The notes beneath the pieces were generated by a model, which searched no databases, was not told where the DNA came from, and was given only the letters and a program-made list of their open reading frames with translations. This document shows, piece after piece, positions 2,411-14,725 of a stretch of 64,000 nt of DNA (position 1 is its first letter; every line of letters begins with the position of its first letter). Made by a program: the position numbers and the translations under genes. The DNA is from Cafeteria roenbergensis. Taxonomy: Eukaryota > Sar > Bigyra > Bicosoecida > Cafeteriaceae. Where the stretch lies: positions 930,001 to 994,000 of the forward strand of contig VLTN01000003.1 in the NCBI GenBank assembly GCA_008330645.1, read 5' to 3'.

Positions 2411-4417
2411 TCACTCGCCCGCGGGCTGCCGAGCCAGCCAAGCATGGTACGCGTCTGCCACGTCATCCAACTCGGGCATCTCGGCCTGCAGGAACGCCGC
2501 CACGGCGCGCAGCAGGCGCTCCTCGCCCGTGCGCAGCGCAGACGCAGCCATGGACACCCACCGCCCCGCCGCCAGCGGCACCACCTGCACTCGCAAGATG
2601 GCCGGCTCGGCGCCCGCGCTGTCCCGAATCGCCACCGACACCGCTCCGGGAGCCGCCCCCACCAGCACAAGCTGCCCCTCCTCCTCGCCTGCACCCCCAA
2701 CCACTCGCAGTGCGGCCCCGTTCCCTGCCACGGTGCTTGCAGTGGCCGCTCCGCGCAGCACCAGCCGATCACCCTGGCAGAGCCACAGCGTGTCGGGGAG
2801 GCGGGGCGCGCCGCCGGCCGCCGCGCCCCCCTCCGCCGGATCGGAACAGTTCAGGTGCAGCTCGCGCGAGGGCGCGTCCCGGACCTTCTCGCCGTCCGTG
2901 GCGCCGCGCCTTGGCGGCGAAGGCTCCGCTATCAGCACCTGCAGCAGGGCCGAGCAGGCCCCGACGGCGGTCGAGAGGTTGCAGTCACGCAGGGCGGCTC
3001 CCTCAGAGCACCCGGACACCGGCCATGCCTCCAGCTCTGCCCCAACTGCCGCCACGCGCATCCCCTCATCGGCCACCACGAACAGGTCCTCCGCTGCAGA
3101 CGGCAGGCGAAGCCGCCCTCGGCACTGATCCACCACGTCGATCGCCCACCCCAGTGCCTCAGCCATGACACTTCGCGCGAGCGGGTCGGCAGGGAGCATC
3201 GGACCGTGCTTGCGCACCATCATGCCGACGCTCCGGCCCCGCACCGACTCCGACACAAGCGCCACGCCTGAGCCCGCGCCCCCCACCACCACCCCCGCCC
3301 CCAGCGGGTCCGCCGTCCGCGGAGACAGCGCCATCTCCCGCAACAGCAGATACCGGCCGGACGCGGCGGCAGCGGCTGTGGGGTCTCTCGCTGGGTCCAG
3401 CAGCGTCACAGACACCTCGAACGGCACAGCCGTCGCCGCTGCCTCTGCGGGGCTCAGATCCGCCCGCTGACACAGCAGGGAGACAACCGCAGCAGGCGCC
3501 GCCGCGTCGCTCTGCGCATCCTGCTCTAGCCCGCCCCCATCAGCACGGCCGTCCCCAGCCCGCCGAGGGGCGCGCCTCGCGAGCATTCCTGCCGCGTACA
3601 TAGCCCAGTCGTCTTGCATGGCGCGCCAGCACCCAGCCACCGTGTCGCCCAGAGGCGCAACGGCCCTCTCGCATGGCAGAGCGGCAAAGGTGTCCACGGC
3701 CACGGGCCGCAGGTGCGCCAGTGGCACGCGGAGCCGCTCGCACCTGGCCTCAACGGCGGCGGCCATTCGCGCGTGGAACTCGTCGGGAGTCGCTGCGGCC
3801 GGCGCCCCGCCTTCGCCGCCACTCGGGCTCAGTTCCGTAAGCAGCGCTTCAGCGCGGCGGGACGAGAGCGCACTCTCCGTCTGCGCCGTTGCTTCTCCAA
3901 GCTCACGGGTGTGGCGTGCCGTCGCCGCGCGCAGCTGCTCCAGCGCAGCCGACCGGGGGGCGCTGCGGGCTTCCGCGAGCACTCCCGCAAGCTCCTCGTC
4001 AAAACGGGCCGTTGCGTCCCAAAGGGCGGCAACGGAGCCGCCAAGGAGCTCGCAGAGCGAAGGCCAAATGTCTTTGTCCCAAGAAAGAGGACCGCCATGC
4101 TTGGACCGGGCTCCAGCCACTCGCTGCGCGGGCGCGGCGAAGCGCGGTTGCGGGTGCTCGGATGCAATCGTCTTGTTCCCGGCCTGCGCGCCGACAGCGC
4201 CTCATTCCCTCCGCCTCCCAATCGGCACACGGGACTCCGTGTGTGCCCTGCGCATTCCTTTGCTGCTCACGTACGCCTCGGAGAGCCGCTCGAGGTCGGC
4301 GGCCTCGGCGACGCCTCGCTCAACGGCGGCGGTCGCGAACGCGTCCCATTGCCGAACGGACTCGAACGACCCCTTTCCATCCGTGAATTGGGAAACGAGC
4401 TGGGCGATCGAGTCCAT
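2411..4417 (-). CDS. Conserved-looking protein of unknown function, two exons
   Basis: The start is ATG at 4417 (MDSIAQLVSQFTDGKG). Exon 1 (4271-4417) ends TAC|GTGAGC and exon 2 (2411-4123) begins after GCGCAG in the same frame, giving 619 aa. I do not recognise a family. Residues about 70-140 are helical and charged. The middle (about 250-390) faintly recalls a degenerate kinase fold, and the C-terminal part has beta-rich stretches. An ATG is missing at the apparent start of the longer open frame at 4120 (it is GTG), which supports the upstream exon. Exon 1, the intron and the first 14 codons of exon 2 lie inside the tandem duplication and reappear at 8321-8659. It could be mis-spliced in my model, but the frame and both splice sites agree. 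Confidence 0.6.
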
Positions 4418-4679
4418 GCCCTGACTGGGACGCCGAGCCCGTGCGCCCAGGCCAAGCTTGGAGTGTTGCAACCCGTTCGCCCCGCTCTGCATCGCTATCA
4501 CAGGATTGGAGATGCCGCAGTTAACACAGCCGGCCAGCATTCTTGTGCCAATCGCTTGCGGGCCTGTGCACATCCTTTCTGCTGCCTCCCTGGGCCACTG
4601 GGACGAGGTGGGGGCCAGCAGCCGCGGGCTGCAACATGTGCCCGCGCTGTGCCGAAGCTCGCAGTCCCACGCACGAACA

Positions 4680-6887
4680 TCAGGCAGCACACACAGCCCG
4701 CTGGGAGCTGGAAAAGGACGCAAACCGCTTTGCCAGGTCCCGGATCGCTTTCGAAGCCTCCCTGACGCGATCGACAACCAGGCCCACCTCGGCTTTGATG
4801 ACCCCGCTGTGCGAAGCCACGGCCGGGGTGAGGGCGTGCCACTTGAGTCCCAAGCGCGCGCACATTGATCCGTACATGATGTTCACGGGCCGCGCCAGGA
4901 GCTCGACGACGTGCGCCCACGGCGGGCACCCCACGATGTTTGCAAGGCCGGCCCCGTGAGGGGCAAGCACGACGTCGGCAGCCGCAAACGCCTCCAAATC
5001 TCGCTGCAAGCCCGCGGGCGAAAAGGCAGTCACCTGGCCGACGTCCTCCAGGTGCGATAGGGCCTCGAGAAGCTCACCCTCGTTCTCGACGCGGCGGGAG
5101 CCAGACCGGCGGACGAAGAGCACCCGGATGGGCCCGGGCGCTGGCGCCACCAGGCCGACAGCTTGTGGGTGAGCGAGCACGCACGTTGCGGCCTGCTGCA
5201 CCGCATCCCGGCCACTGCCCCACGCGGAGACAGCGCCGGCTGGCCCCAGAGCAGCGGCAGCGGCGCCCAGGCTCAGCAAACCGGCTGGGCATGCGCCCTC
5301 GGCATCAGCGCTCCAGCTCGCATCAGGCGCCGCCGAGGCGCTGACGCCGTCTTGCTCGGGGAGCAGGCGGCTCGCGGCTTGCAAAAGGTCCTGACGCGCG
5401 GGGTCCTTGCAAGCGCCCGACAAGCTCCATGCCCACCGCCGCATGGGGAGGAGGGCCGAGGCGGGCGGGTTGCCGCAGAACGTGCCGTCGGGGACCAGCA
5501 TCCGCGGCGCGCGAACGCAGCCCGACACGAGCCGGTCGGGACGCAGCCCCACTGCGTCCATCGCAGCGCTCACCATCGGGTTCGCCTGCGTCACGTGCAC
5601 GAGGGCGCCTTCGCGGCGAGCGGCCGAGAGAGCCATGAGCAGACGCGGCAAGCACTCGGCCAGGAAGTGGGCTGGCCCGTAGCCCATAGGTTGCGCAATC
5701 ACCACAACGGGCGCGTTGTGGGCCGCACACTGCGCACGGCGAACAGGCTTGGCAACGAGGCCAGGCGTTCCGCACGATGGCAACACGACCGTCTCGGCGC
5801 TGTTTCCCCAGCGGCCACCCGACACCGGTGCAGACACGACCCCATCCTCCGAAACCGCCGCGTCCCGGACCACTGCGACCATGGGACGCTCCGACCACGG
5901 TGACACGCGCGCCTGCCTCTCGTGCAGCGTGGAGAGCAGCACAGCGTGCAAGCCACTGCTGCCGCCACTTGCGATGGCCCCCGCCATCGAGTCGGCGTAC
6001 TCGCGGCTTCCGTGAGAAGATAGCCAGGACCCAAGGATCGCCCCGCTCTCCTGCAGCCACGGCAACAGTCTTGGCTGGCTGTCTGGCAAGCCACGCCAGC
6101 GCGCTTCGGCGGACAGAACTGCGTCGAGCTGCGCGCACCACACGGAGAAATGCTGGCAGCCCCTTGCCCCCCGAAGCGCATCGACCATTGGCCCGTGATG
6201 CGCAACTGCGCTTCCACCTTCTCCTCGTCTCTTCGCAACCGAAGAGTGGCCCGTGCTGAGCATATGGAGCGTTCCGTTAAGAGCTGCATGCGGCGGTCCC
6301 GTGCGGGCGGCGGCCCGAACCGAGGCAGACTCGCTGGCCCGCAACGAGTCACCTTTTTCGGCCCTCAACGAGGCAGCCTCTTCGGCCCGAGGTGGGGCGG
6401 ACTCTCCGGCCCGTAGCGGGGCAGACTCGACGGCCGGAGGCGAGGCAGATTCGCCGACCCGCAGCGAGTCCGCTTTTTCGGACCGCAACGCGTCACGCTT
6501 TTCGGACCGCACCGTGTCAGCTCTTTTGACCCAAAGTGGAGCAGATTCGCCGACCCGCAGCGAGTCACCTTTTTCGGCCCTCAGCGAGGCAGCCTCTTCG
6601 GCCCGAGGTGGGGCGGACTCTCCGGCCCGTAGCGGGGCAGACTCGACGGCCGGAGGCGAGGCAGCTTCGCCGACACGCAAAGAGGCGGACTCTCCGGCCC
6701 GCAAAGAGGCGGACTCTCCGGCCCGCAAAGAGGCGGACTCTCCGGCCCTCATCACCAGCGCAAGAAGCGTGGCCGCCAGCAGCAAGGCTGTCAGCGCAAC
6801 TCGGCCCGTTGGGAGGCAAGCAGTGGCGCTCTGGCCGTGTGCCCGGCTGCGCTCAGTCCGCTCTTGGCCGCGCGCCCGCGAGCGCAT
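4680..6887 (-). CDS. GT61-type glycosyltransferase, copy A, with expanded stem repeat
   Basis: The ATG at 6887 gives 735 aa. The leading frame upstream begins with GTG, so I start at the ATG. Residues 29-45 (RVALTALLLAATLLALV) form a signal anchor typical of type II Golgi glycosyltransferases. Residues about 46-195 are a degenerate eight-residue repeat (LRAGESAS-like). The catalytic domain carries PAHFLAECLPRL near residue 405 and PHGAGLANIVGCPPWAHVVEL near 643, which I recognise as the GT61 (DUF563) signature. Family members transfer xylose, arabinose or GlcNAc onto glycans; the substrate here is unknown. It is divergent from the MED6 fragment. It differs from copy B by about 7 bases outside the repeat and one 46-bp patch of 18 changes. 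The coding frame is intact in both copies. Confidence 0.85.
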   Translation of the reverse strand: MRSRARGQERTERSRAHGQSATACLPTGRVALTALLLAATLLALVMRAGESASLRAGESASLRAGESASLRVGEAASPPAVESAPLRAGESAPPRAEEAASLRAEKGDSLRVGESAPLWVKRADTVRSEKRDALRSEKADSLRVGESASPPAVESAPLRAGESAPPRAEEAASLRAEKGDSLRASESASVRAAARTGPPHAALNGTLHMLSTGHSSVAKRRGEGGSAVAHHGPMVDALRGARGCQHFSVWCAQLDAVLSAEARWRGLPDSQPRLLPWLQESGAILGSWLSSHGSREYADSMAGAIASGGSSGLHAVLLSTLHERQARVSPWSERPMVAVVRDAAVSEDGVVSAPVSGGRWGNSAETVVLPSCGTPGLVAKPVRRAQCAAHNAPVVVIAQPMGYGPAHFLAECLPRLLMALSAARREGALVHVTQANPMVSAAMDAVGLRPDRLVSGCVRAPRMLVPDGTFCGNPPASALLPMRRWAWSLSGACKDPARQDLLQAASRLLPEQDGVSASAAPDASWSADAEGACPAGLLSLGAAAAALGPAGAVSAWGSGRDAVQQAATCVLAHPQAVGLVAPAPGPIRVLFVRRSGSRRVENEGELLEALSHLEDVGQVTAFSPAGLQRDLEAFAAADVVLAPHGAGLANIVGCPPWAHVVELLARPVNIMYGSMCARLGLKWHALTPAVASHSGVIKAEVGLVVDRVREASKAIRDLAKRFASFSSSQRAVCAA
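6310..6755 (-). repeat. 24-bp-register coding minisatellite in GT61 copy A
   Basis: The minus strand encodes repeated units such as LRAGESAS, LRVGESAP and SLRAEKGD. A higher-order unit of about 118 bp starting at 6346 recurs at 6562, a spacing of 216 bp or nine 24-bp units, with only a few base changes. Copy B has only a trace of it (WAGESVLLRG). The repeat lies between the membrane anchor and the catalytic domain, where Golgi enzymes have their stem. Confidence 0.9.
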
Positions 6888-7037
6888 GGTCACGTCAAGC
6901 CTCCCTCCCGCAGGCAGGATAGAGGCGGCAGTCTGGTGTCAACGGCAAGGCTGCCGCTTGCTTCGCGCGTCCTTTCTTGGCGCCCTGGGTGGTCTCGGGG
7001 TTCTGAAGCTGCTGCGTGCGTGCCTCCGATGTCGTCC

Positions 7038-7084
7038 ATCCTGCGAAACAAGCATTGCTGAAGTCTATGCTAGTTTCGCAGGAT
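7038..7084. repeat. Foldback (inverted repeat) inside a 65-bp copy-A-specific segment
   Basis: Positions 7038-7055 and 7067-7084 are inverted repeats of 18 bp with one mismatch, separated by an 11-base loop. The arms read ATCCTGCGAAAC and onward. The whole 65-bp segment 7027-7091 is absent from copy B. Confidence 0.85.
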
Positions 7085-7441
7085 CAGCCGCTGCCTGGTT
7101 CCGCAACACGTGCGCGCCGACATCAACGGGAGACACAGCTTCAGCCGCCCTGCATGGCACACGTGGGCCAGAGTGGGGCTCGGCCGTTGACTTCCCGTGA
7201 CCGCAGCGCAGCGGGCTGGAAACCTGTGGCAGGTTGTCGCTGCGAAAGCGCTGCATCGAGGCTCAAGCGACAGATCGAAAGTCTGCGGCCAGCGTCATTC
7301 TTGATTGTTGGGGGGCACTCGCACCTGCTCTTGCTACTGAAACGACATTGGTCTGCGTTGGGACCCAACTTTGGTTCGCATCTGGTGTGTGTGCCACGTG
7401 CGCCGATTTCGGAATTGCGCGCATCAGCAGTGCCGGTGCAC

Positions 7442-7457
7442 TGCAAATGCATTTGCA
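7442..7457. repeat. Perfect 16-bp palindrome with octamer-like halves
   Basis: The sequence TGCAAATGCATTTGCA is its own reverse complement and contains ATGCAAAT-like octamers in both orientations. It lies in the copy-A-only intergenic segment. Confidence 0.7.
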
Positions 7458-7853
7458 TCTGGCCCTTGTGGGTGCGTGCTTTGGCAGGTCGACAGGCTTC
7501 TGGCGCGTCACGACGCTGCTGCGACAGCGCTGCTCCCGAGCTGGCCGTCGCTGCTTGCTGTGACCGCTCTGGGCACCGCACGCACACCAATCTGGTTCAG
7601 TGTGCCATTGTGCCCATCGCCCGCGCTGTCACCTGGAAACATCATCGGCACAGTGGTCTGCGCTGGTGGCAGCCACGTCCAGAAACAGCCAGTTCGGGTG
7701 CCCACACAGCTCGCCAACCCGCAACTCAGCGGCGCGGGCAATGCTCGCCGGGTGCGAGATATTATTGCACAACACGAAGAACAGCTGCAAGCTCGAGCCT
7801 GCCGACACTCGGCCACGGCTGCCTCCTCGCCTTCCCCAGTTGGCCGTGGGGGG

Positions 7854-8181
7854 ATGGACGGGGAAGCGTCAGCGGGGGATGCGTACTCGACCCCGCACGA
7901 CGATGAGTCTCTTGGTGAGCCACGGAGCCGTCCATGAGCTGGGGGGTGCGCTGCCTCTTGCATGCTTCGCGCCCAGGCCTGCGCGCAAGCCCAGGTGCGC
8001 TGCCTCCGCGTGCGTGTGCGAGGACGGCCGCAGGCTTGAGCTTCAGAGAGGAGCAGTGGCTGAACACACGCCCTCTCTCGGTGGGGACCGTGATGGACTA
8101 CTTTCGGCTCTCGCCGTGGTACGACCCCGGGAGCATCAACGCTCGCGCCATCGAGCAGGGGCTCGCCCCCGAGGCAGCCAG
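7854..8181 (+). pseudogene. MED6 5' fragment (exons 1-2 only), left by the tandem duplication
   Basis: Exon 1 (7854-7914) and exon 2 (8034-8181) match MED6 exons at 11129-11189 and 11309-11456, apart from a synonymous change near the start of exon 2. The copy stops inside intron 2 at about 8312, where the next duplicated block begins, so exons 3 and 4 are missing. Splicing exon 1 to exon 2 and reading on would give a peptide of under 100 residues. It could still be transcribed, because its promoter region is duplicated with it. I call it a pseudogene because the MED6 core is incomplete. Confidence 0.88.
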
Positions 8182-8320
8182 GTGCGCCCGTATGCGAGGT
8201 CTGCGCGTGGGCCGACGTGACGGTCGTGCCTAGTTCGCGCGGGCTGTGGAGGGTGGGGAGGGTGGCGTGCGCTCTGGTGGTCACGCCGCCAGGGCCTTGC
8301 GCCTGTTTGATGTGCCTGTC

Positions 8321-8659
8321 CTAAGAAAGAGGACCGCCATGCTTGGACCGGGCTCCAGCCACTCGCTGCGCGGGCGCGGCGAAGCGCGGTTGCGGGTGCT
8401 CGGATGCAATCGTCTTGTTCCCGGCCTGCGCGCCGACAGCGCCTCATTCCCTCCGCCTCCCAATCGGCACACGGGACTCCGTGTGTGCCCTGCGCATTCC
8501 TTTGCTGCTCACGTACGCCTCGGAGAGCCGCTCGAGGTCGGCGGCCTCGGCGACGCCTCGCTCAACGGCGGCGGTCGCGAACGCGTCCCATTGCCGAACG
8601 GACTCGAACGACCCCTTTCCATCCGTGAATTGGGAAACGAGCTGGGCGATCGAGTCCAT
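8321..8659 (-). pseudogene. Truncated copy of the unknown gene at 2411-4417
   Basis: Exon 1 (8513-8659, starting MDSIAQ) and the intron are duplicated intact. Exon 2 is duplicated for only 14 codons, and the frame meets TAG at 8321-8323, exactly at the duplication junction. The predicted product is 63 aa against 619 aa for the full gene. Confidence 0.8.
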
Positions 8660-8921
8660 GCCCTGACTGGGACGCCGAGCCCGTGCGCCCAGGCCAAGCT
8701 TGGAGTGTTGCAACCCGTTCGCCCCGCTCTGCATCGCTATCACAGGATTGGAGATGCCGCAGTTAACACAGCCGGCCAGCATTCTTGTGCCAATCGCTTG
8801 CGGGCCTGTGCACATCCTTTCTGCTGCCTCCCTGGGCCACTGGGACGAGGTGGGGGCCAGCAGCCGCGGGCTGCAACATGTGCCCGCGCTGTGCCGAAGC
8901 TCGCAGTCCCACGCACGAACA

Positions 8922-10721
8922 TCAGGCAGCACACACAGCCCGCTGGGAGCTGGAAAAGGACGCAAACCGCTTTGCCAGGTCCCGGATCGCTTTCGAAGCC
9001 TCCCTGACGCGATCGACAACCAGGCCCACCTCGGCTTTGATGACCCCGCTGTGCGAAGCCACGGCCGGGGTGAGGGCGTGCCACTTGAGTCCCAAGCGCG
9101 CGCACATTGATCCGTACATGATGTTCACGGGCCGCGCCAGGAGCTCGACGACGTGCGCCCACGGCGGGCACCCCACGATGTTTGCAAGGCCGGCCCCGTG
9201 AGGGGCAAGCACGACGTCGGCAGCCGCAAACGCCTCCAAATCTCGCTGCAAGCCCGCGGGCGAAAAGGCAGTCACCTGACCGACGTCCTCCAGGTGCGAT
9301 AGGGCCTCGAGAAGCTCACCCTCGTTCTCGACGCGGCGGGAGCCAGACCGGCGGACGAAGAGCACCCGGATGGGCCCGGGCGCTGGCGCCACCAGGCCGA
9401 CTGCTTGTGGGTGAGCGAGCACGCACGTTGCGGCCTGCTGCACCGCATCCCGGCCACTGCCCCACGCGGAGACAGCGCCGGCTGGCCCCAGAGCAGCGGC
9501 AGCGGCGCCCAGGCTCAGCAAACCGGCTGGGCATGCGCCCTCGGCATCAGCGCTCCAGCTCGCATCAGGCGCCGCCGAGGCGCTGACGCCGTCTTGCTCG
9601 GGGAGCAGGCGGCTCGCGGCTTGCAAAAGGTCCTGACGCGCGGGGTCCTTGCAAGCGCCCGACAAGCTCCATGCCCACCGCCGCATGGGGAGGAGGGCCG
9701 AGGCGGGCGGGTTGCCGCAGAACGTGCCGTCGGGGACCAGCATCCGCGGCGCGCGAACGCAGCCCGACACGAGCCGGTCGGGACGCAGCCCCACTGCGTC
9801 CATCGCAGCGCTCACCATCGGGTTCGCCTGCGTCACGTGCACGAGGGCGCCTTCGCGGCGAGCGGCCGAGAGAGCCATGAGCAGACGCGGCAAGCACTCG
9901 GCCAGGAAGTGGGCTGGCCCGTAGCACATAGGTTGCGCAATCACCACAACGGGCGCGTTGTGGGATGTGCACCACATGGGGCGAACAGGCTTGAACATCA
10001 GGCCAGATGATCCGCACGATGGCAACACGACCGTCTCGGCGCTGTTTCCCCAGCGGCCACCCGACACCGGTGCAGACACGACCCCATCCTCCGAAACCGC
10101 CGCGTCCCGGACCACTGCGACCATGGGACGCTCCGACCACGGTGACACGCGCGCCTGCCTCTCGTGCAGCGTGGAGAGCAGCACAGCGTGCAAGCCACTG
10201 CTGCCGCCACTTGCGATGGCCCCCGCCATCGAGTCGGCGTACTCGCGGCTTCCGTGAGAAGATAGCCAGGACCCAAGGATCGCCCCGCTCTCCTGCAGCC
10301 ACGGCAACAGTCTTGGCTGGCTGTCTGGCAAGCCACGCCAGCGCGCTTCGGAGGCCAGAACTGCGTCGAGCTGCGCGCACCACACGGAGAAATGCTGGCA
10401 GCCCCTTGCCCCCCGAAGCGCATCGACCATTGGCCCGTGATGCGCAACTGCGCTTCCGCCTTCTCCTCGTCTCTTAGCAACCGAAGAGTGGCCCGTGCTG
10501 AGCATATGGAGACTTCCGTTCAGCGACGCATGCGGATGAGCAAGGACTGCAGCGCCCCGCAGCAAGACGGATTCCCCGGCCCACAGCACCAGCGCAAGAA
10601 GCGTGGCTGCCAGCAGCAAGGCTGCCAGCGCAACTCGGCCCGTTGGGAGGCACGCAGTGGCGACCTGGCCGTGCACGCGTTTGTATTTTTTCCGCTGCTG
10701 GCCGCGCGCCCGCGAGCGCAT
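8922..10721 (-). CDS. GT61-type glycosyltransferase, copy B
   Basis: The ATG at 10721 gives 599 aa. The signal anchor (RVALAALLLAATLLALV) occupies residues 29-45. The catalytic domain is the same as in copy A, with PAHFLAECLPRL near 270 and PHGAGLANIV near 507. The stem is short and has no repeat expansion. Residues about 233-254 differ sharply from copy A (for example GLMFKPVRPMWCTS against GLVAKPVRRAQCAA), and MGYGP becomes MCYGP just downstream of the patch. By family it is a Golgi type II glycosyltransferase. It faces away from the complete MED6 gene across 407 bp. Both copies look functional; the paralogs may have different acceptor preferences, which is inference. Confidence 0.85.
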   Translation of the reverse strand: MRSRARGQQRKKYKRVHGQVATACLPTGRVALAALLLAATLLALVLWAGESVLLRGAAVLAHPHASLNGSLHMLSTGHSSVAKRRGEGGSAVAHHGPMVDALRGARGCQHFSVWCAQLDAVLASEARWRGLPDSQPRLLPWLQESGAILGSWLSSHGSREYADSMAGAIASGGSSGLHAVLLSTLHERQARVSPWSERPMVAVVRDAAVSEDGVVSAPVSGGRWGNSAETVVLPSCGSSGLMFKPVRPMWCTSHNAPVVVIAQPMCYGPAHFLAECLPRLLMALSAARREGALVHVTQANPMVSAAMDAVGLRPDRLVSGCVRAPRMLVPDGTFCGNPPASALLPMRRWAWSLSGACKDPARQDLLQAASRLLPEQDGVSASAAPDASWSADAEGACPAGLLSLGAAAAALGPAGAVSAWGSGRDAVQQAATCVLAHPQAVGLVAPAPGPIRVLFVRRSGSRRVENEGELLEALSHLEDVGQVTAFSPAGLQRDLEAFAAADVVLAPHGAGLANIVGCPPWAHVVELLARPVNIMYGSMCARLGLKWHALTPAVASHSGVIKAEVGLVVDRVREASKAIRDLAKRFASFSSSQRAVCAA

Positions 10722-11128
10722 GGTCACGGCAGGCCTCCCTCCCGCAGGCAGGATAGAGACGGTAGTCTGGTGTCAACGGCAAGGCTGCCGCTTGCTTCGC
10801 GCGTCCTTTCTTGGCGCCCTGGGTGGTCTCGTGTGTGTGGAGCTGTTGTGTGCCTCTGCCTGGTTCCTGGTTCAGTGTGCCATTGTGCCCATCGCCCGCG
10901 CTGTCACCTGGAAGCATCATCGGCACAGTGGTCTGCGCTGGTGGCAGCCACGTCCAGAAACAGCCAGTTCGGGTGCCCACACAGCTCGCCAACCCGCAAC
11001 TCAGCGGCGCGGGCAATGCTCGCCGGGTGCGAGATAGTATTGCACAACACGAAGAACAGCTGCAAGCTCGAGCCTGCCGACACTCGGCCACGGCTGCCTC
11101 CTCGCCTTCCCCAGTTGGCCGTGGGGGG
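10722..11128. promoter_or_regulatory. Shared divergent promoter region of GT61-B and MED6
   Basis: 407 bp between two start codons that face apart. It is the shorter counterpart of 6888-7853 and lacks the foldback and the 490-bp segment. No core element is certain. Confidence 0.5.
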
Positions 11129-12397
11129 ATGGACGGGGAAGCGTCAGCGGGGGATGCGTACTCGACCCCGCACGACGATGAGTCTCTTGGTGAGCCACGG
11201 AGCCGTCCATGAGCTGGGGGGTGCGCTGCCTCTTGCATGCTTCGCGCCCAGGCCTGCGCGCAAGCCCAGGTGCGCTGCCTCCGCGTGCGTGTGCGAGGAC
11301 GGCCGCAGGCTTGAGCTTCAGGGAGGAGCAGTGGCTGAACACACGCCCTCTCTCGGTGGGGACCGTGATGGACTACTTTCGGCTCTCGCCGTGGTACGAC
11401 CCCGGGAGCATCAACGCTCGCGCCATCGAGCAGGGGCTCGCCCCCGAGGCAGCCAGGTGCGCCCGTATGCGAGGTCTGCGCGTGGGCCGACGTGACGGTC
11501 GTGCCTAGTTCGCGCAGGCTGTGGAGGGTGGGGAGGGGGGGCTCGGCCGCTCGCAGGGGTCACGCCGCCAGAGCCTCCCGCGCGTGTTTGTCCGATCCTC
11601 GCAGCCGCTTGACTGGGATGGAGTACAGAGTGTGCCCCCAGCCTACGCAGGCCCAGGGCCTGATTGTGCTGGAGGCGTGGCGACGCAGCGGGCCCAAGGA
11701 CTCGGACGTGGAGCTAATGGCGCTGTACTATTGCTTGTGGGGGACCATTTACCAAGCGCCAGACATTCGCTCGGTGCTGGCTGGGCGCGCAGTGAGCCCG
11801 GCAGCACCCGCACCGCACACTTGCCATCTGCTTTGGTCCGTCGTACCGTACCGTCGCCCTTCGCCTTCCAGCCCCAGAGGGCGCGCACACACGCACGCCC
11901 TCGTCCGCGCGGCTCAGACTGCATCAACTGCCCACCCCCGAGACCTCCCCGTCTGGCCTGGGTGCCACCCCCGTCCGCAGAGGCGCGCCGCGGTGCATAT
12001 CCATAAGGCAATGGCTCTCATCGCGGAGTGTAGTCTGCCGGCGGTCGAGGCCCCTGCGCCAGCAAGCCGCAAGCGGCGTCGGGCAGGCGCAGCCGATGGC
12101 CCCGCGGCGGCGGAGGGTGCGGCGGCGGCGGGCGTGGCCGACGTCGACGACGAGGAGGGCGGTTGCGCTGTGCCTGGCGACAGCGAAGGCGTTGGCGGCG
12201 GTGTGAGCGCGCCGCTCGCGCTCCTCCAGGGGCGCCTCTCTGCCCAGGACGCCGCCCTCGTCGGGGCGTCAATCTCCGCGGCCATGGAGGGCGAGCTCGC
12301 CTCCATCGTCGCGGCTCGGCGCTCCGCCACACAGCGCACGGGGGCGGTGCGGCGCGCAGCAGATGGCGCATTCCGCGGCACGGAGGAGGATACGTGA
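11129..12397 (+). CDS. MED6: Mediator complex subunit 6 (MED6)
   Basis: Four exons: 11129-11189, 11309-11456, 11605-11791 and 11981-12397, 270 aa. The introns begin GTGAGC, GTGCGC and GTGAGC and end in GCAG. Family signatures appear in order: EEQWLNTRPLSVGTVMDYF, SPWYDPGSINAR, GMEYRVCP and the diagnostic LYYCLWGTIYQAPDIRSVL. The C-terminal part holds a basic KRRRAGAA stretch and an acidic, Ala-rich tail. MED6 is a head-module subunit of Mediator and helps link activators to RNA polymerase II in the nucleus. The start gives MDGEASAGDAY and is conserved in the duplicated fragment. Exon 3 to 4 joining is the least certain, because the tail is variable in the family. Confidence 0.88.
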
Positions 12398-12755: not shown

Positions 12756-14411
12756 CTACTCCTCGGTCTGCTTGGTTGCCTCCGCAGCCACGGCCGCCGC
12801 GCGAGCCCTGGCTGCCTCCTGCACGGACACGGGGAGGGGCCGCGCCGCCTGCTCCTCCACGATGCGCGCCAGCGCGGCGAGGGACTGCTCTTGCCGCTGC
12901 TGCTCCTGCTCCCAGTTGAGCATGGCCATGGCTCGCTTCTCCTCCGCGTTGAAGACCTGGTTCTCCTTGCGCAGGCGCACCTCGTTCATGCGCACGTTCC
13001 GGCTGCCGCTCATCACGTAGCCTGACGCCTCAAACTTGGTGATCTCCTCCCCAGACCAGGCCACCTCGCCTCGCCTGGGAACCCGCTTGCCAGCCTGCAC
13101 GAACGCAGCGATCTTCTGGCCTTCCCCGGGCCGCATCGCGCCGCCGAACCCGCCGCGAGACGGCTGCACCATCAGCTCCCCGTCGTCGCCACGCAAGGGC
13201 ATGGGGCCAAAGTCGCTGTCGCTGTCGCTGCCGCTGTCATCGCCGTCCAAAGCTCCATCCGCCCCTTGGGCAGAGGTGCCTTCAGCCCCGGGCGCACAAG
13301 CAGCGCCGGTTGAAGCACTCTCCTGGTCCCCAGCCGCAGCGGCGGGCGCAGCCGCCTGCTCCTCCGCCTCCGACGCTGCCCGCTGGTCCGCGCGCACTGC
13401 GCCCGCTGCAACCTCCGCCTCTGTGGCAGTTGCTTGCGCCTCTGCCTGCGCCTCTGTTGCGTCCTGCTTGGCCTTCTTGGCCCGCCCCCGCCTCTTCCGT
13501 TCGCGATCGAGCTTGGCCGCTTCCTCGCGCACCGCCTCCAGCACATCGGTGGGCGGTGAGGGGCTATCCGCCCAAATCCACGGCATGGCAAGTGCCTCTC
13601 TTGCGTCGCGCCGCCCCTCGGCAAAGGAGCCCGATGGCGTTGCAGGAGCGCGGCCCGAGGCGCCCTCCCCTGCCGCTGAAAGGTTGGCAGCCCGGGGCGG
13701 CGCAGCGGCCGGCACCTGACTGGCCGGGGTGGTGGGCCCCCTCCAAGCAGGCGCGTGCCCCCCGTATGCTGCAGGAGGGGCGTCGGAGCGATCGCCCCAC
13801 CTGCTCCCTCCGCGCCGACCAGCGTCGCGCCCCCAGTGGGCAGGACGGCGGTCATCGCCGCTGCCCCCCCAGCCGCCACGCCCACTGTAGCCACCGCCAC
13901 CCCCGCCGCCGCCTCGGCCGCCCTCGCGGTCGTAGCCGCCGCCTCGGCCGCCCTCGCGGTCGTAGCCGCCGCCTCGGCCGCCCTCGCGGTCGTAGCCGCC
14001 GCCTCGGCCGCCCTCGCGGTCGTAGCCGCCGCCTCGGCCGCCCTCGCGGTCGTAGCCGCCGCCTCGGCCGCCCTCGCGGTCGTAGCCGCCGCCTCGGCCG
14101 CCCTCGCGGTCGTAGCCGCCGCCTCGGCCGCCCTCGCGGTCGTAGCCGCCGCCTCGGCCGCCCTCGCGGTCGTAGCCGCCGCCTCGGCCGCCCTCGCGGT
14201 CGTAGCCGCCGCCTCGGCCGCCCTCGCGGTCGTAGCCGCCGCCGTCCGCGCTCGCCCGGGGTGGTGCGCGAGCGTGCGAACTAGCTCGGTCCTCATCGCC
14301 GTCCTGACCGCGGGTCGCCCAAGCCGGGAGGGTCCTGTGCGCGCCCCTCAAAGAGCTAGTTCCGCCGCCCGCCCGTCCGTAGCCTCCGTCACGGGCCGAG
14401 CTTCCAGACAT
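12756..14411 (-). CDS. NKAP: NKAP family protein (SynMuv / NF-kB-activating protein C-terminal domain)
   Basis: ATG at 14411 (MSGSSARDGGYGRAG), 551 aa, no intron needed. The C-terminal part carries the family signature: RRGEVAWSGEEITKFEASG, YVMSGSRNVRMNEVRLRKEN and QVFNAEEKRAMAMLNWEQEQ, followed by a charged helix. NKAP proteins are nuclear and linked to spliceosomes and transcriptional repression. The N-terminal half is an RGG/SR-like low-complexity region with about 11 copies of the ten-residue unit GGGYDREGGR, which replaces the RS-rich region of animal NKAP. A second low-complexity stretch is rich in Ala and Glu. It is divergent from the CMGC kinase gene. Confidence 0.9.
   Translation of the reverse strand: MSGSSARDGGYGRAGGGTSSLRGAHRTLPAWATRGQDGDEDRASSHARAPPRASADGGGYDREGGRGGGYDREGGRGGGYDREGGRGGGYDREGGRGGGYDREGGRGGGYDREGGRGGGYDREGGRGGGYDREGGRGGGYDREGGRGGGYDREGGRGGGYDREGGRGGGGGGGGYSGRGGWGGSGDDRRPAHWGRDAGRRGGSRWGDRSDAPPAAYGGHAPAWRGPTTPASQVPAAAPPRAANLSAAGEGASGRAPATPSGSFAEGRRDAREALAMPWIWADSPSPPTDVLEAVREEAAKLDRERKRRGRAKKAKQDATEAQAEAQATATEAEVAAGAVRADQRAASEAEEQAAAPAAAAGDQESASTGAACAPGAEGTSAQGADGALDGDDSGSDSDSDFGPMPLRGDDGELMVQPSRGGFGGAMRPGEGQKIAAFVQAGKRVPRRGEVAWSGEEITKFEASGYVMSGSRNVRMNEVRLRKENQVFNAEEKRAMAMLNWEQEQQRQEQSLAALARIVEEQAARPLPVSVQEAARARAAAVAAEATKQTEE
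13910..14240. repeat. NKAP: 30-bp perfect minisatellite, about 11 copies, inside NKAP
   Basis: The 30-bp unit starting CCCTCGCGGTCGTAGCCGCC repeats from about 13921 to 14240, with all full copies identical. It encodes GGGYDREGGR on the minus strand. Perfect identity over ten units means recent expansion or strong homogenisation. Confidence 0.97.
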
Positions 14412-14725
14412 GGCTGCAGTTGAGCCGGGGTCACGCGCAGCGTGCGGCCTGCAACTGACGGGCCGGTCGCTGAAGTGATGGCCGGGCCGCAGCCGGGAAG
14501 CCACGCACTGGCGGGCGCCGTCGCGGTTGACAGAGCGAGCAGAGCCGGGGCCGGAGCGGCATTTGCATGTGGCACGGTCGCCCCGGCACAACAACTACGA
14601 AACACCCCGGCGCCGCCCCGGCGCTTTGTCTCCTGGGATCGCTGGTAGCCGCGCGCGCTCTTGCGGCTGGGCGCTCGTGTTTGCGCTGCCGACTGCGAGA
14701 CCGACGACTCGCGCACTGAGCGGCC
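14412..14725. promoter_or_regulatory. Divergent promoter region, NKAP and CMGC-like kinase
   Basis: 314 bp between opposed start codons. I find no recognisable core motif and no repeat. Confidence 0.45.

Follow-up and report, generated by a model that had tools for sequence, protein, structure and literature searches.

Divergent islands in a tandem pair of GT61 genes of Cafeteria roenbergensis, probable remnants of an old duplication

Introduction

How can two neighbouring genes be almost identical along their common coding sequence and still differ at 18 of 46 consecutive positions? The question is raised by two GT61 genes of Cafeteria roenbergensis, referred to here as copies A and B. They are found in a 64,000-nucleotide stretch (the window; positions 930,001 to 994,000 of contig VLTN01000003.1) with a G+C content of 71%, which belongs to an assembly of 36.3 Mb in 167 contigs (GCA_008330645.1). 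The original prediction regarded the patch as hypervariable and attributed it either to a short gene conversion tract donated by a third paralog or to diversifying selection on a substrate loop.

The tandem duplication and its two GT61 genes

Self-BLASTN shows that copies A and B are carried by the two units of a direct, adjacent tandem duplication (Table 1). Their products score 47.7 and 48.4 bits, respectively, against the PF04577 profile (gathering cut-off 27), which assigns both to GT61. The units differ by two long stretches present in A. The first is a series of 24-bp repeats across which the offset of the A/B alignment changes from 4242 to 3834; these extra 408 bp stand after an apparent membrane anchor, read by eye. 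The array encodes 8-residue AGESASLR-like units that have weak matches at the start of contig C5. The second stretch lies upstream and accounts for a length difference of 559 bp (572 bp in A vs 13 bp in B). Copies of very recent origin would not be expected to differ by such lengths. Towards its distal end (8242–8309), the unit features 9 mismatches and 6 gap positions.

Two sequence features were noted in the upstream stretch. An imperfect inverted repeat (7038–7084), 83% identical to its own reverse complement, is close to island 5 (see below) and to the point where the A/B alignment stops. The heptamer CTGGTTC, found by eye at 7095–7101 and 7592–7598, brackets 490 bp of the upstream difference, and reading the alignment in the same way locates it twice in tandem in B (10860–10873).

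The direct adjacency of the two units is what would be expected if the assembly had placed two haplotypes in tandem or had generated a chimaeric copy. Such an artefact is very improbable: both ORFs are open, the differences in the patch are in frame and free of indels, and random sequencing error is unlikely to yield 18 substitutions and zero indels.

Table 1. Features of the duplicated unit; positions are those of the window.
Feature	Position	Strand	Evidence and remarks
Unit A of the tandem duplication	4075–8309		self-BLASTN blocks 4075–6293, 6719–7019, 7592–8309; alignment
Unit B of the tandem duplication	8317–11590		self-BLASTN partners 8317–10535, 10553–10853, 10867–11590
GT61 gene copy A, 737 aa	4680–6893	-	ORF; PF04577 E=2.4e-12, residues 409–663
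GT61 gene copy B, 601 aa	8922–10727	-	ORF; PF04577 E=1.4e-12
A-only 24-bp repeat stretch	6311–6718	-	408 bp = 17 x 24, AGESASLR-like repeats; repeat family D2; alignment
A-only upstream stretch (13 bp in B)	7020–7591		self-BLASTN; alignment
Island 1, copy A (reported patch)	5723–5768	-	18/46 substitutions; residues 376–391
Island 1, copy B	9965–10010	-	partner of A 5723–5768
Gly404 (A)/Cys (B)	5684	-	single change, 5 residues before His409
Island 2	A 6269–6310, partner 10511–10552	-	17 substitutions/42 bp; edge of A-only repeat stretch
Island 3	A 6719–6753, partner 10553–10587	-	9 substitutions/35 bp
Island 4	A 6819–6865, partner 10653–10699	-	16 substitutions/47 bp; N-terminal tail; no indel
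Island 5	A 6997–7019, partner 10831–10853		7 substitutions/23 bp; 5' non-coding, beside A-only stretch

The reported patch

The alignment at the constant offset of 4242 reproduces the 18 substitutions without indel that had been counted in the patch, and the nearest indel is not found within about 500 bp. The reading frame is kept and the nine predicted residue changes (TP/SS, VA/MF, RAQ/PMW and AA/TS) are all present among the 16 residues of the patch. The Gly/Cys change is indeed separate from it. The count of about seven differences in the remainder of the coding sequence is correct for the other 512 aligned codons (4683–6268; 7 of 1536 bases, at 5037, 5160, 5684, 6110, 6113, 6216 and 6234), but this remainder omitted the amino terminal part of the genes, which holds three more coding islands. 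The argument that point mutation at the background rate cannot give such a patch holds: when the 25 differences of 4081–6268 were placed at random 20,000 times, the maximum within 46 bp was 7, compared to the 18 observed.

Five islands across the duplicated unit

The complete duplicated unit was segmented by a two-state model applied to its gap-free blocks (4075–6310, 6719–7019 and 7592–8262; 3,208 positions with 85 differences), leaving out the two A-only stretches (6311–6718 and 7020–7591) and the gapped end (8263–8309). Rates of 0.5% and 33% fit the alignment with a log-likelihood of -271.8, vs -392.5 for one rate. The A/B pair is a mosaic of five islands of 23–48 bp with 26–40% divergence in a background that differs mostly by 0.4–0.6%. 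The reported patch, delimited by the model as 5722–5769 (18/48), is thus not unique: four other islands diverge to a similar degree, and the rates of the five are homogeneous (chi-square p=0.69). Islands 2–5 are located in the amino terminal coding region and in the 5' part of the unit. The low-state background amounts to 8/2146 in the coding core block, 4/671 upstream (7592–8262) and 6/196 in the 6719–7019 block. The latter is intermediate and exceeds the 12/2817 found elsewhere (p=0.0007, for a comparison picked after viewing the data).

Base composition also differs between copies. Substitutions over the islands lean to a lower G+C in B (36 S-to-W vs 18 W-to-S, p=0.02), and those that change G+C in the low-state regions are balanced (8 vs 8). 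Taken one by one, B is lower in G+C than A in four of the five islands (5722–5769, 6269–6310, 6819–6865 and 6997–7019).

The differences are clumped inside some of the islands. The patch has an identical run of 14 positions (P=0.006) and 10 adjacent pairs of differences vs 6.2 expected (P=0.02); once its identical runs of 14 and 7 are removed, matches occur at just 7 of 25 positions, which is near chance. Clumping is found in island 4 (P=0.03) and in the five islands pooled (29 adjacent pairs vs 21.0 expected, P=0.007) but not in islands 2, 3 and 5 (P=0.22, 0.62 and 0.94, respectively). Clumps of this kind would result from complex mutation, such as local template switching or multi-nucleotide mutation, that wrote the clusters. 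This origin is quite improbable, given that no match longer than an 11-mer to either version of the patch is found within 3 kb on either strand and that the islands keep their frame, their alignment and a common level of divergence.

Silent and amino acid divergence

Diversifying selection on a substrate loop, acting on point mutations that arose after duplication, would account for the change of 9 of 16 residues and for the non-synonymous divergence of the patch (pN 0.355, 12.5/35.2), which exceeds that of the other three coding islands (0.29, 0.22 and 0.20). The silent sites of the patch are, however, raised as well: pS is 0.43 (5.5/12.8) vs 0.010 (4/410) in its flanks (Fisher p=4e-8), where pN is 0.003 (3/1126). 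The pS of the other coding islands is 0.46 (5.5/11.8), 0.33 (3.5/10.5) and 0.56 (4.0/7.2), and the 6269–6296 segment taken as ten codons gives 0.49; site numbers are small in the patch as in these islands. Since silent divergence in the patch equals that of the other coding islands and far exceeds that of the flanks, selection on new amino acid mutations alone is not its cause. Such selection is unable to lift silent divergence about 40-fold locally, which calls for an older or a foreign history of the islands. The other islands, moreover, are found in the amino terminal part and in non-coding DNA. Diversifying selection alone, one of the two causes originally proposed, is hardly credible.

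Search for donors, paralogs and outgroups

The other proposed cause, conversion of the patch by a third paralog, finds no counterpart in the assembly within the limits of the searches. A tblastn search of the 36.3 Mb with copy A (E<=10) revealed no close paralog beyond A and B: three of the 12 rows correspond to A and B and the other nine all fall within query residues 37–196, the repeat stretch. PF04577 is detected at nine places of the genome, eight of them over the cut-off. Copies A and B are two of the nine and the seven others are too distant to show the ancestral version of the patch. Donor searches covered the patch and island 4. A DNA search of the assembly with either version of the patch and 10-bp flanks matched only the query copies themselves, as did 28-mers with up to 3 mismatches that cover the patch up to about its midpoint, and either version of island 4 matched only itself. 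Note that neither patch query recovered the other copy, showing that these searches are weak for diverged donors; a well-diverged or unassembled donor would therefore be missed.

An ortholog or outgroup was found neither in viral contigs (six peptide patterns) nor in genome contigs (two peptide patterns). BLASTN (matches of at least 150 bp) over the window and 20 further stretches totalling 200 kb of its contig detected no other gene-size duplication. The 21 rows obtained are all tandem arrays of short period, apart from a single inverted match of 165 bp, and so this region offers no within-genome control for the A/B pair. Long tandem repeat arrays were observed from 746468 and from 806627 of G000:C3, with BLASTN shifts of ~108 and ~384 bp. 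Elsewhere in the window, a gene on the minus strand with an NKAP C-terminal domain (12756–14594; PF06047, E=2.7e-36) carries a tandem repeat of 30 bp at about 13815–14333, which is in frame and encodes YDREGGRGGG units.

These results bear on a scenario in which the tandem duplication is recent (~0.5% divergence) and one copy later received short tracts from a third, diverged homolog. The homolog could be a paralog that was lost or not assembled, or could belong to a different haplotype or strain. The similarly low background of the coding core and of the upstream DNA, as well as the sharp edges of the islands in the alignment, agree with this scenario, and the lower G+C that B shows in four of the five islands could be the signature of a foreign source common to them. 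Import is nonetheless unlikely. It requires several separate events, and the assembly displays neither a donor for the versions of the patch and island 4 nor a third close paralog, bearing in mind that diverged donors escape detection.

The lower G+C lean of B would fit an allelic as well as a foreign source for its islands. The tandem pair could then have been made by unequal crossing-over between alleles for which the islands were an old polymorphism, present before the duplication. A background of 0.4–0.6% would be an ordinary level of heterozygosity, and the several islands would be accounted for at once. This origin is rather improbable as it needs old alleles held mosaic by recombination.

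Probable homogenisation of an old duplication through conversion

The reading we favour, with a probability of roughly 0.58, is that the islands are remnants of old divergence in an old tandem duplication that was mostly overwritten by gene conversion. The GT61 copies would have once diverged to roughly 0.4 differences per silent site. Conversion between them, later and for the most part recent, would then have replaced most of the alignable sequence, bringing it to a difference of about 0.4–0.6%, and short islands that escaped overwriting would retain the old divergence. The original prediction was therefore probably right in invoking gene conversion, but the order of events is likely the reverse: the flanks rather than the patch would have been overwritten and the islands left. 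Reverse order is the more likely because the patch is one of five similar islands, some of which belong to the amino terminal tail or to non-coding DNA. The intermediate class of differences in 6719–7019 fits conversions of different dates.

Persistence of the islands might have more than one cause. Four adjoin the large indels and the repeat array or are no more than about 0.2 kb away from them, and this heterology could block conversion. At the reported patch, conversion tracts may have ended by chance, or converted versions may have been selected against owing to a functional difference. Under a constant rate of conversion an island this old would survive with a probability of exp(-0.35/0.0043), about 2e-36. 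This reading therefore further requires that conversion came in a recent burst, was suppressed locally or was opposed by selection. If a burst of 300-bp tracts covers all but 46 of 2188 bp, the expected number of gaps is 0.59, with an average length of 78 bp; it is 0.18 with 1000-bp tracts and 1.78 with 100-bp tracts. Chance survival in a burst and selection may each account for the catalytic-domain island.

Some observations go against overwriting of an old duplication. The background of the coding core resembles that of the upstream DNA, which is also expected from a single recent duplication. The clumping of differences inside the patch speaks against it too, and the lower G+C lean of B is not predicted by old divergence.

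Position of the patch in the protein and possible function

The Pfam match in copy A begins at residue 409, a His followed by FLAE, and the patch is just amino terminal to the matched domain, its residues standing 18–33 positions ahead of His409. In EOGT, N245 and H248 (N-x-x-H) are described together with R372 and R377 (PMC13123520). EOGT is also matched by sequence in the PDB (9wjk, E=0.0027), as is POMGNT2 (7e9j, E=1.7), and the EOGT alignment sets R596 and R600 of copy A on two EOGT Arg residues that are five residues apart, taken to be R372 and R377 according to our own residue mapping. His409 is likely in the place of the proposed catalytic His, in an alignment that we infer for this residue. 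Copy A shares the Pfam GT61 domain with EOGT and POMGNT2, and would resemble EOGT in the two aligned Arg and in the likely placement of the His. It would differ from EOGT in that, judging from the spacing to His409, the Asn position of the N-R-R constellation for UDP seems to be Gly406. A G-R-R variant of this kind is reported for Proteobacteria (PMC13123520). An AlphaFold2 model built from two sequences has a mean pLDDT of 34.9, too poor to place the patch.

One possibility, put forward tentatively, is that the catalytic-domain island acts as a substrate-specificity switch: two GT61 enzymes otherwise made identical by conversion would be kept apart by selection for two glycans. The switch could, at a similarly guarded level, comprise the 16-residue stretch before the catalytic His together with the nearby Gly/Cys change.

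Known parallels

The A/B pair alternates between stretches of high and low divergence, at silent sites too, as found in the class of conversion islands. A close parallel is provided by the linked paralogs GOT1p1 and GOT1p2 of Tigriopus californicus, whose islands of high divergence lack fixed indels and lie inside a single exon amid ongoing gene conversion (Willett 2013, PMC3728101). According to the same work, clustered divergence can lower the conversion rate even where it covers a small region. Conversion is shown there directly by four populations and GENECONV, whereas the GT61 pair is represented by two copies in one assembly, with islands of 23–48 bp and no outgroup. A peak of divergence is also found in the human red and green opsins, where conversion keeps the flanks alike and selection is proposed to restrict it at the peak, which coincides with functionally different sites (reviewed in PMC3924837). 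The function of the opsin sites is known, while the GT61 patch is described here from its sequence. Unlike in the opsins, four of the five GT61 islands are outside the immediate amino terminal flank of the Pfam-matched domain. The kind of pattern is already known and, by analogy, the GT61 pair looks like a further example of it.

Concluding remarks

The A/B pair illustrates that the whole duplicated unit should be aligned before a short divergent patch is called hypervariable. If selection maintains the island of the catalytic domain, it marks residues that set specificity in this GT61 pair. Otherwise, the islands would provide an example of the patchy record that conversion leaves in a compact, GC-rich genome.
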